From a virus, in IMG/VR virus record IMGVR_UViG_3300027733_001415, positions 1 through 22,556 of that record: a DNA stretch of 22,556 bases; one strand, written 5' to 3'. Shown here in pieces: positions 2,283 to 14,671 of the stretch; position 1 is the stretch's first letter; each line of letters starts with the position of its first letter. The position numbers and the translations under genes are program-made. A model generated the notes under the pieces. It had not been told where the DNA came from, did not search any database, and worked only from the letters and a program-made list of their open reading frames with translations.

Positions 2283-2314
2283 TTTGATTAAATGAAAATG
2301 AAATTTTATATTTG
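2283..2314 (+). promoter_or_regulatory. Host-type promoter, start-codon-fused (for 2319)
   Basis: TTTG at 2283-2286, a 20-base gap, TATATTTG at 2307-2314, then TAAT and ATG at 2319. The promoter lies inside the upstream extension that starts at 2292, which decides the start codon. Confidence 0.75.
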
Positions 2315-2318
2315 TAAT

Positions 2319-3023
2319 ATGGAATTATCTAATAAAGTAAGGAAGTTAATATATAGTATGTTTGATACTATGGTAGAAGGGGTTGATAAGTATGAGACAA
2401 AATCATCAACTTGGTTAATATTCACAGATGAAAAAAAATGGGTTTTAGAATTTACAAAAGAAAACATTCTTTGGTTTAATTATAACACCTTTCAGTCAGA
2501 ATTGGTTTTGGTTGGAATGGATTGCGTTGATTCAAAAGATGTTATTAAAGAATGGTTTGAATCAAGATTTTTGGGTATTGAGGTTGAAGATACCATTCAA
2601 AATGGGGTGAAACACACCCATGCGCAACGGTTCCATGAGTTCGTTGGAGTTGAAGATACCATTCAAAATGGGGTAAAAATGATCAAAAGCACCTTAATCA
2701 GTCAAGATTCTAATGTTGAAGATACCATTCAAAATGGGGTGAAAGAGACTATTGGAACACTACGACGAACTAAACTTGGGGTTGATGACATTATTAAAAA
2801 CGGTGTTAAAGAAATCAACCACGTTGATGTTATGAAGTTTTTTGATAATAAAATGGAAAAGGCATTACAAAATGGTATTAAAGAAACCAAAAGTATGTGT
2901 GGAAAACGTGATGGTAGAGTTAACAACACAATTGAAAACGGGGTTAGACACGTTGAGGATGGTGATTGGTTAGATCAAGACGATAGAATTGAAGATATTA
3001 TTCAAAATGGTGTTAAATCATAA
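2319..3023 (+). CDS. Protein with seven VEDTIQNGVK repeats, unknown function
   Basis: No named family recognised; 234 residues. Residues 1-88 form a compact N-terminal domain rich in aromatic residues. From residue 89 to the end there are seven copies of a 10-residue core, consensus (V/I)(E/D)(D/N)xIxNGV(K/R), at residues 89, 111, 133, 155, 179, 201 and 224. The cores are separated by 12-14 residue linkers with almost no similarity to each other. The first three cores are identical at DNA level except for one base, while the linkers have diverged fully. ATG 2319 is chosen over the in-frame ATGs at 2292 and 2298 because the promoter's -7 box ends four bases before it and the earlier ATGs lie within the promoter. 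A binding surface with variable loops is a possible reading, but nothing shows the ligand. Confidence 0.8.
   Translation: MELSNKVRKLIYSMFDTMVEGVDKYETKSSTWLIFTDEKKWVLEFTKENILWFNYNTFQSELVLVGMDCVDSKDVIKEWFESRFLGIEVEDTIQNGVKHTHAQRFHEFVGVEDTIQNGVKMIKSTLISQDSNVEDTIQNGVKETIGTLRRTKLGVDDIIKNGVKEINHVDVMKFFDNKMEKALQNGIKETKSMCGKRDGRVNNTIENGVRHVEDGDWLDQDDRIEDIIQNGVKS
2583..3017 (+). repeat. In-frame tandem repeat, 7 x 30-bp core with 36-42-bp variable linkers
   Basis: Cores begin at 2583, 2649, 2715, 2781, 2853, 2919 and 2988, giving periods of 66, 66, 66, 72, 66 and 69 bases. All periods are multiples of three. Copies 1-3 begin GTTGAAGATACCATTCAAAA and are nearly identical; copies 4-7 are degenerate. 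The array encodes the C-terminal part of the protein at 2319. Confidence 0.93.
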
Positions 3024-3456: not shown

Positions 3457-3485
3457 TATAGTATAAACTATTAAAGTTGAAAACT

Positions 3486-4247
3486 ATGAAAAAAATACAC
3501 AACATTTGTGGTTATTGTAATCAAAATTATTACGGACAAGGTAAATTTTATTGTTCTCTTGAATGTCGAAATAATGCGTCTAAAGGTAAGTCACAAAAAA
3601 AAAGGAGTGAAGAGACAAAATTAAAATTAAGTTTATCACATAAAGGTAAAAAGTTAACAAAAGAAACAAAAGAAAAAATTGGGTTAGCATCAAAAAAAAT
3701 ATGGGAATCTGAAGAATATAAAAAAAAACAATATAATAGTAGGATTGGTAAAACCGTTAGTAAAGAAACTAGAAAAAAAATTTCAGACACTCAAAAAGGT
3801 ATCCCAAGACCATATTTGATTGAATATAACAAAAACAGACCTAAAGTAAGTGGATGGAAACATACTGAAGAAAGTAAAAAAAAGATTAGCGAAGGTGTAT
3901 CAGGAAGTAAAAATGGAATGTACGGTAAACTACCAAAATTTAATAAACCAACTGAATATATCAATGGGGATTTAAAGATATTTATGAGGTCAACTTGGGA
4001 GTTTAAATTTGCTCATTGGTTGGATAAAAATAAAAAAAAGTGGGAATATGAAAAACACACATTTAAATTATCAAGCGGATATACCTATACACCTGATTTT
4101 TTATGTGAAGGTATTTTTTACGAAGTTAAAGGTTATATGCATAAAAAAGCAAAAGAAAAAATAGAAATGTTCAAAAAAGAATATTCAGATAAAAAATTTA
4201 TTATTGTTGATAGGGAGTATTTTAAAAAAAACGGTATAAAATTATGA
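3486..4247 (+). CDS. Free-standing homing endonuclease, NUMOD3 plus PD-(D/E)XK-type nuclease
   Basis: DNA endonuclease of the kind that spreads itself in phage genomes; 253 residues from ATG 3486. The N-terminus has a Cys zinc-finger-like element (CGYC ... FYCSLEC). It is followed by several NUMOD3-type DNA-binding repeats, seen as S-E-E-T-K-x-K-x-S and S-K-E-T-R-K-K-I-S segments and the KNGMYGK element. The C-terminal third has YTPDF followed by YEVKG, the D...ExK catalytic arrangement of PD-(D/E)XK nucleases. A TTG nine bases upstream (3477) is in frame but less likely as a start. The gene overlaps the next by four bases (ATGA), so it is wedged into the phosphoesterase unit. It is very Lys-rich. 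Confidence 0.82.
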   Translation: MKKIHNICGYCNQNYYGQGKFYCSLECRNNASKGKSQKKRSEETKLKLSLSHKGKKLTKETKEKIGLASKKIWESEEYKKKQYNSRIGKTVSKETRKKISDTQKGIPRPYLIEYNKNRPKVSGWKHTEESKKKISEGVSGSKNGMYGKLPKFNKPTEYINGDLKIFMRSTWEFKFAHWLDKNKKKWEYEKHTFKLSSGYTYTPDFLCEGIFYEVKGYMHKKAKEKIEMFKKEYSDKKFIIVDREYFKKNGIKL

Positions 4248-4897
4248 GTTTTAAAAAATTATTAACAACAGGAAAAGTTTGGATTACCTCAGATTTGCAT
4301 TTTGGTCACAAAAATATTGTACGAGGAACTACCAATTGGAGAACACAAGATGGTGAAGTACCTGTGGATTCTACTCGTGACTTTCAAACTATTGAACAAA
4401 TGAATGAACGTTTGATTGATGGTATAAATCACTTTGTTGGGCAAGACGATACTTTAATTATGTTGGGTGATGTTTCATTTGGTGGATTTGATAACATTGG
4501 ACTCTTTCTTGAACGATTGATATGTCACAACATTCATTTAATACTTGGAAACCACGATCACCACATTGAAAATAATCGGGATTACGTTCAAGGAAGATTT
4601 TTAAGTGTCCAACACTATTTGGAAGTGAACATTGAAGGTAAAGATTTTGTACTTTGTCACTACCCACTACAAAGTTGGAACGGACTTAACAAAGGTGTAA
4701 TCCATCTTCACGGTCACGTACATCTACCTGAAACCCGTAAATTTGGTAATGGAAAAAGATTGGATGTTGGTGTTGATGGTAATGGAATGGATCCATATAG
4801 TATTTCTGATATTATTAAAATAATGGATAAAAGATTAAAAGGTTCTGATATGTCAGGAGATCACCACTTGGATGGATTAGTTGGTGTTGTGGGTTAA
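4244..4897 (+). CDS. Calcineurin-like metallophosphoesterase (second copy type)
   Basis: Phosphoesterase of 217 residues with a full motif set: SDLHFGH (16-22), LGD (74-76), LGNHDHH (101-107), CHYP (138-141) and HGHVH (156-160). The DLHFGH opening and the CHYP motif place it in the phage/bacterial YmdB-unrelated calcineurin-like group often annotated simply as phosphoesterase. It is clearly not a recent duplicate of the protein at 433. The first ATG overlaps the stop of the homing endonuclease, so the two are probably co-transcribed. The C-terminus after about residue 195 is polar and lacks motifs. The substrate is unknown. Confidence 0.88.
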   Translation: MSFKKLLTTGKVWITSDLHFGHKNIVRGTTNWRTQDGEVPVDSTRDFQTIEQMNERLIDGINHFVGQDDTLIMLGDVSFGGFDNIGLFLERLICHNIHLILGNHDHHIENNRDYVQGRFLSVQHYLEVNIEGKDFVLCHYPLQSWNGLNKGVIHLHGHVHLPETRKFGNGKRLDVGVDGNGMDPYSISDIIKIMDKRLKGSDMSGDHHLDGLVGVVG

Positions 4898-14066: not shown

Positions 14067-14093
14067 AAAAGGGAGGGTTACCCCTCCTTTTTT
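14065..14093. terminator. Bidirectional terminator between convergent genes
   Basis: An A-run, GGGAGGG, TTAC loop, CCCTCC and a T-run form a stem of about 11 pairs with one bulged G. T-runs follow in both directions. It serves 13680-14066 on the forward strand and 14078-14671 on the reverse strand, whose stop lies within it. Confidence 0.88.
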
Positions 14094-14671
14094 AAATCAT
14101 TTTCAATCCTGTATCTACGTTTTAATAACCATTTATTTTTTTTATTTTCTCTAATGGCGCTTGGAGAACATTTAAAATGTTTAGCCGCGTCTTTAGAATT
14201 TAAAAATAAAAACACCTGATTAGTTAAAGTGTCGGTTATTTTTAAATGAACCTTACTGTTAGATATCTTTTGTTTATTTAACCAATCATCATTTTTAAAT
14301 TTACCACCATAGTTTGGATTATTTTTACCCGAACTACTTTTAGAAATTTTTTCTATTATTAAATCTCTTTTAGGGTTGTTTGAAATAGTATCACCACCTT
14401 TAGCCACTTTTACAATATTATACTCAGAATTTTTTGATAAATAAAAATTTTCCCTTTCTAATAATACGTTCAAATCACAAGTCTCAATAACTTCAAACTT
14501 AAAATTATTTTCACCATATTTATTCCATGCCCTTTGTAATATAACATTTTGGTGATTATCAGATTTTAATTTTTTTAAATGCTCATTCCATCTTCTATCT
14601 ATATTTTTAGATGAACCAACATAATAATTACCATTATATGTGTTAATAATTTTATAAATCCCTATTATCAT
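14078..14671 (-). CDS. GIY-YIG homing endonuclease with NUMOD modules
   Basis: 197 residues. The GIY-YIG domain is at the N-terminus: GIYKIIN (4-10), YYVGSS (16-21), then the Arg pair and Glu of NIDRRWNEH. A second catalytic-type Glu lies in LLERENFYL. The middle holds a NUMOD3 element (SGKNNPNYGGKF). The end holds a NUMOD1-like helix-turn-helix (FLNSKDAAKHFKCSPSAIRE). This is the usual layout of I-TevI-like or Seg-type mobile endonucleases. Its ATG overlaps the last base of the stop of the upstream lysis-type gene, so it rides on that transcript. No intron is evident around it. Confidence 0.9.
   Translation of the reverse strand: MIIGIYKIINTYNGNYYVGSSKNIDRRWNEHLKKLKSDNHQNVILQRAWNKYGENNFKFEVIETCDLNVLLERENFYLSKNSEYNIVKVAKGGDTISNNPKRDLIIEKISKSSSGKNNPNYGGKFKNDDWLNKQKISNSKVHLKITDTLTNQVFLFLNSKDAAKHFKCSPSAIRENKKNKWLLKRRYRIENDLKKEG

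Follow-up and report, generated by a model that had tools for sequence, protein, structure and literature searches.

An array of repeats within a phage gene looks like an undescribed viral route to collecting new peptides

The array gene and its surroundings

The window analysed here, a stretch of 22,556 nucleotides, is a linear IMG/VR virus record (IMGVR_UViG_3300027733_001415) and carries a gene in which a head domain is followed by an array of repeats (Table 1). Seven cores of ten residues lie at 2583-3017 with start-to-start spacings of 66, 66, 66, 72, 66 and 69 nt, and the mutually unrelated linkers between them measure 12, 12, 12, 14, 12 and 13 residues. All 30 nt agree between core copies 1 and 3, and copy 2 is one base off; the ORF holds 34 repeated 12-mers, whereas none of 500 codon shuffles has more than 5. 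A preliminary description had reported seven cores at a period of 22-24 residues, the first three differing by one base in 30, in a layout that imitates CRISPR yet is coding throughout. All of this holds: repetition is far above that of codon shuffles, the first three cores share 29-30 of 30 bases, and every repeat lies inside the gene. Unit 1 consists of the 36-nt repeat GTTGAAGATACCATTCAAAATGGGGTGAAACACACC followed by 30 nt. As nucleic acid the repeat (2583-2618 in the window) could form two adjacent hairpins, CCATTcaaAATGG and GGTGaaacaCACC, and its most variable positions, 30-32, sit in the loop of the second.

Table 1. The array gene of the window and its parts
Feature	Position	Strand	Core position	Basis and occurrence elsewhere
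Whole gene, 234 aa: head domain and seven-unit array	2319..3023	+		ORF; no difference in L001/L002; 100+ homologues share the layout
Bacteroidota-type promoter (-33 TTTG, -7 TATATTTG), ending 4 nt before ATG	2283..2314	+
N-terminal head domain, alpha-beta4-alpha2	2319..2579	+		AlphaFold2 pLDDT above 90; alignment
Unit 1: VEDTIQNGVK + HTHAQRFHEFVG	2583..2648	+	2583-2612	linker 30/30 nt in L044, different head lineage
Unit 2: VEDTIQNGVK + MIKSTLISQDSN	2649..2714	+	2649-2678	linker 28/30 nt in L152, L098, L097
Unit 3: VEDTIQNGVK + ETIGTLRRTKLG	2715..2780	+	2715-2744	linker 30/30 nt in L018; 23 arrays, 11 lineages
Unit 4: VDDIIKNGVK + EINHVDVMKFFDNK	2781..2852	+	2781-2810	linker 34/36 nt in L041 and L037; 5 lineages
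Unit 5: MEKALQNGIK + ETKSMCGKRDGR	2853..2918	+	2853-2882	linker 30/30 nt in L081; 7 lineages
Unit 6: VNNTIENGVR + HVEDGDWLDQDDR	2919..2987	+	2919-2948	26 arrays, 14 lineages
Terminal core IEDIIQNGVK-S	2988..3020	+	2988-3017

The start codon is most likely the ATG at 2319, right behind a Bacteroidota-type -7 box, TATATTTGTAATATG, and in many homologues a promoter box is likewise found close to the ATG. Five copies of TATATTTGTANTATG, a -7 box of this type, stand a few bases before start codons (window positions 421, 2307, 3033, 7612 and 12779), and the short promoter motif has 11 matches on the plus strand as against 2.7 expected from mononucleotide shuffles. The position of the -7 boxes near start codons suggests that transcripts are leaderless or nearly so and that the host belongs to the Bacteroidota. 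Other genes of the window encode an RNA ligase, a kinase-like P-loop ATPase, an AAA ATPase, phosphoesterases and homing-endonuclease-like proteins. Two calcineurin-like phosphoesterases (433-1137 and 4244-4897) flank the region, and their relatives often adjoin the array gene in other phages. The genes at 3477-4247 and 14078-14671 encode NUMOD3 and GIY-YIG/NUMOD3 proteins; both are likely to be mobile homing endonucleases, and one lies close downstream of the array gene.

The prediction of structure that had been proposed for the repeat region gives a disordered array behind a confident globular head of ~86 residues (AlphaFold2, pLDDT above 90). Residues D22, Y24, S29, W31, I33, T35, W40, E43, L50, W51, N53, Y54, F57 and W78 of the head (numbering omits the start Met) are invariant in the alignment. 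In the L048 form, where the first core directly follows the head, the core is predicted to complete the head's last helix (residues 64-79); the repeats may therefore plausibly have arisen by duplication of the end of this helix. Neither Foldseek against the PDB (best E 0.41 and 0.53) nor VIA-align against solved structures (best Z 3.5) gives a match to the head fold above chance level, which does not in itself prove a new fold. In BFVD several uncharacterised 'uncultured Caudovirales phage' proteins resemble the head domain (best E 5.9e-6). Six of these have neighbouring accessions (A0A6J5L9N2, A0A6J5L6U7, A0A6J5L9L5, A0A6J5L5X4, A0A6J5L5S8 and A0A6J5L5U3), some being only 105-118 aa long, and are possibly paralogues in one phage. 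Apart from truncations, we find no stand-alone head domain without an array.

A phage family that gains, loses and exchanges whole units

Searches of IMG/VR with the protein, the repeat DNA and the head domain retrieve well over 100 carrying contigs of up to 308 kb. After reduction the family comprises 107 distinct proteins, 92 non-redundant arrays and 894 units from 45 head-domain lineages (85% identity). A complete array has 2-27 units (median 9); none of the 894 units breaks the frame, and the same head domain stands ahead of every array. Searches of INPHARED phages and of 84,980 species genomes (bacterial chromosomes) found no relative. Pfam and PHROG searches yield no family worth keeping, PHROG matches at E about 0.001 being driven by the repeats and discarded. 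Gene neighbourhoods vary widely among phages, and the array gene is probably an accessory gene of large freshwater phages with Bacteroidota as probable hosts. Literature searches find VEDTIQNGVK in no paper and, when broadened, nothing similar; to our knowledge, no described system has this combination of features.

Clustering of the 802 linkers gives 473 clusters, including 334 singletons, and the two most frequent linkers are spread over 14 and 11 head lineages. The linkers of the window, said in the preliminary description to share nothing obvious, are indeed unrelated among themselves, yet each of the six is found again in other phages and combined differently there, with three identical over 30 nt despite strongly diverged heads. 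Near-identical arrays differ by the exact insertion or replacement of a single unit (L132 versus L141 and L106 versus L045, for instance), and new units are seen inside arrays as well as at the 5' edge. Unit overlap (Jaccard) is 0.65 between arrays whose head DNA is >99% identical, 0.40 at 97-99%, 0.11 at 93-97% and 0.01 at 50-70%; in close pairs the order of units is mostly conserved. At the level of sequence, these comparisons show that arrays gain, lose and swap units as intact 66-nt blocks, with the repeats as the points of exchange. The same linkers at a constant copy number, the pattern that would have spoken against variable units, are absent family-wide. Within one population the picture differs from that of the family: its 26 loci, drawn from about 19 contigs and diverging by as much as 0.56%, all keep one and the same array, so that array change is not instantaneous. 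Likewise, two other contigs, each 99.98% identical to the window, carry exactly its array.

How can conserved cores alternate with unrelated linkers? It had been proposed that either the linkers undergo diversifying change or the cores are homogenised by recombination. The former is not supported. Related linkers have a dN/dS of 0.30, and pairwise linker identities are bimodal, linkers being either unrelated or at least 20/30 nt alike with a valley between; thus linker diversity does not come from point mutation and, as the sequences show, retained linkers are under purifying selection. The idea that one linker gives rise to another through a frame shift or an inversion was also dropped, as linker-to-linker relations are in frame only (864 in-frame matches, 0 shifted and 2 trivial reverse). 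In the 5' portion of arrays, homogenisation of cores is supported. Perfect cores use codons that are rare in these phages (ACC 97%, GGG 89%, GTG 69%), a usage suggestive of DNA-level identity through recent exchange or duplication; the ACC/GGG preference of perfect cores is kept across phages with head domains about 50% identical. The puzzle of the linkers is answered by gain, loss and exchange of whole units together with polar ageing, and not by diversifying point mutation. Whole-unit movement, the polarity of arrays, the fixed 66-nt private units and the conserved head domain are what the earlier reading lacked.

Age of units and origin of new linkers

Several properties change along the arrays. 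From the first to the last fifth, core identity goes from 27.0 to 23.2 of 30 nt, linkers of exactly 12 residues from 86% to 48%, and linker sharing between lineages from 28% to 53%. Synonymous GC3 of private linkers declines along arrays from 0.316 to 0.191 (phage expectation 0.205), core GC3 is 0.354 in perfect cores and 0.208 in those with 3 or more differences, and linkers common to at least 3 lineages have a GC3 of 0.170; the z-scores of these composition trends assume independent codons. When loci are collected through the head domain only, as a control for bias from DNA-pattern retrieval, the gradient is the same (private-linker GC3 0.341 to 0.226, cores 27.3 to 23.6) and codon preferences are unchanged. 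The synonymous codons of private linkers look foreign in the 5' direction, and linkers in the 3' direction agree with the codon usage of the phages. Cores at the 3' end diverge with the protein-like constraint V/I-x-x-x-I-x-N-G-V-K. Taken as signatures left in the sequence, these gradients show that arrays are polar, running from young (5') to old (3').

Private linkers that lie between two perfect cores have a spacing of 22 residues in 33 of 33 cases, equal to the 36-nt repeat plus 30 nt of novel DNA, unlike shared units, which range over 19-29+ aa. In a six-frame codon model the in-frame share of private linkers is 0.45 (5-95% 0.34-0.57, second model) and that of linkers common to at least 2 lineages 0.58-0.72; as controls, real in-frame coding DNA gives 0.84-0.99 and random-frame DNA 0.2-0.3. 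These values fit an origin of private linkers as DNA pieces in any reading frame, with adaptation to coding afterwards.

Donor DNA for the linkers was sought at several levels. For 78 young linkers INPHARED contains no source match, the positive control of the method having worked; nine linkers searched in IMG/VR as exact or merged patterns match in arrays only; two have no match in GTDB genomes; and all linkers compared with 2.7 Mb of related phage DNA, three near-whole phage contigs included, show no excess over decoys. Self-derived linkers, without excess over reversed decoys, and linkers as hairpins, without enrichment, were both dropped. Ten contigs of 104-308 kb contain no reverse transcriptase (RVT_1), no Cas1 (PF01867), no tyrosine integrase (PF00589) and no Y1 transposase (PF01797), the last being the mark of an IS200/IS605-type or REP-associated system. 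Given that neither a linker donor nor any of the four candidate machineries was found, we infer acquisition rather than show it.

Readings of the array and known systems

We consider it somewhat better than an even chance that the locus is a modular peptide-string gene, one that takes up short pieces of DNA and whose units are subsequently traded. The protein would be a small globular head with a disordered string, each unit pairing a 12-residue core encoded by the repeat with a variable peptide of ~10 residues. Entry of new units, chiefly into the 5' half, would bring in some 30 nt of arbitrary-frame DNA along with a copy of the 36-nt repeat, through a machinery that is probably not phage-encoded, and homologous recombination at the near-identical repeats would then spread useful units among co-infecting phages. 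What the peptides do is the weakest step: they might engage proteins of the host or of rivals, as decoys, antagonists or alternative short binding motifs displayed by the head; we make this proposal tentatively. Regarding the array as an evolvable peptide collection is just as speculative.

Possible, though on balance doubtful, is a protein-coding counterpart of CRISPR, in which a ruler-like machinery would insert about 30 bp of foreign DNA and duplicate the 36-bp repeat, making peptide units. The machinery might be host Cas1-Cas2 or another integrase acting in trans, with selection keeping units and recombination spreading them; we hold this combination to be no firmer. The type II-C CRISPR array of Campylobacter jejuni PT14 has a 36-bp repeat and a 30-bp spacer (PMC4283603). 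Near-identical 36-nt repeats, unrelated 30-nt spacers, a fixed unit size, decay of the repeat toward one end and an open spacer pool are all shared with CRISPR arrays. Unlike these, the phage array is translated in frame with a head domain in all 894 units, its linkers are under protein-level purifying selection, are traded between phages and sometimes exceed 30 nt, and it gains units internally too; neither Cas1 in the ten contigs nor protospacers in the part of the relevant DNA that was searched were found.

The main rival to acquisition, which we rate as possible but not probable, is shuffling only, that is, a very large and old pool of units exchanged by homologous recombination at the repeats, with private linkers undersampled. 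Exchange of whole units among lineages is a direct observation, the Chao2 estimate of about 2,050 clusters against 473 seen marks the pool as open, and the searches made found no source DNA of linkers. The odd composition of private linkers would then reflect higher-GC donor phages or relaxed selection, yet private linkers are without an in-frame codon signature under own-phage and 38%-GC phage models alike, their synonymous GC3 drops along the array, and private units are strictly 22 aa in length.

It is improbable that the gene encodes a precursor polyprotein whose cores are processing or recognition sites, each linker being freed as a RiPP-like or signalling peptide. Such a precursor would resemble multi-core ones in its conserved spacers and hypervariable cores, and the predicted disorder of the array would suit it; however, no conserved modifying or protease gene was seen in the neighbourhoods, which vary widely, and linker composition has no modification-like bias. 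A role as nucleic acid, be it CRISPR mimic, mini-array or RNA decoy with an incidental open frame, is very improbable. The repeat is conserved at the DNA level, can fold into two small hairpins and has, with its spacer, type II-C dimensions, yet each of the 894 units keeps the frame, shared linkers have the low dN/dS given above and 3' cores diverge as protein does. Nor does the repeat match any Rfam family at E up to 5, CRISPR families included, and the absence of cas1 from the ten contigs and of protospacer matches from the DNA searched points the same way. An RNA function of the hairpins was dropped, as their stability is ordinary for the peptide encoded, 13% of synonymous recodings being equally stable. 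Targeted hypermutation of linkers by a diversity-generating retroelement or phase-variable slippage is scarcely credible: linkers are hypervariable between phages, but RVT_1 is absent from the ten large contigs, identities form no mutational continuum, the substitution pattern (dN/dS 0.30) is not mutagenic and the array is constant in the 26 loci of one population.

The modular peptide-string gene can also be set beside other systems. Like integron cassette arrays it is polar and accumulates modular cassettes that are exchanged by recombination at short repeats, but its cassettes are 66-nt pieces within one ORF and not whole genes, and the ten large contigs have no match to the tyrosine recombinase family. 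With polymorphic toxin or TALE-type repeat proteins it shares conserved backbone repeats that let recombination swap variable elements; unlike in these, the variable part is an unrelated 10-residue peptide in each unit, apparently of non-coding-frame origin, and no toxin or DNA-binding domain is found in the array protein. Racrs, the RNA anti-CRISPRs of phages, are non-coding solitary repeats (PMC10651486). They too are phage-borne repeat units resembling CRISPR repeats, whereas the arrays described here are long, translated and match no CRISPR-repeat family in Rfam.

If the acquisition reading is true, this would be a natural system in which arbitrary short DNA gives rise, within one gene, to peptides that are translated, can be selected and can be traded horizontally. 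Array order would record age, providing a dated record of the birth and optimisation of coding sequence, and the large natural set of phage peptides, of which the clusters seen are a part, may reveal host targets or counter-defence. Even with shuffling only, the arrays form an undescribed and widespread phage protein family with unusual modular evolution. Array genes also occur as tandem pairs (L034, L066, L139, L141, L113 and L118), often the short before the long and with different units, and at L154 (1-1500) the gene is apparently split, a stop straight after the head domain being followed by an open array.
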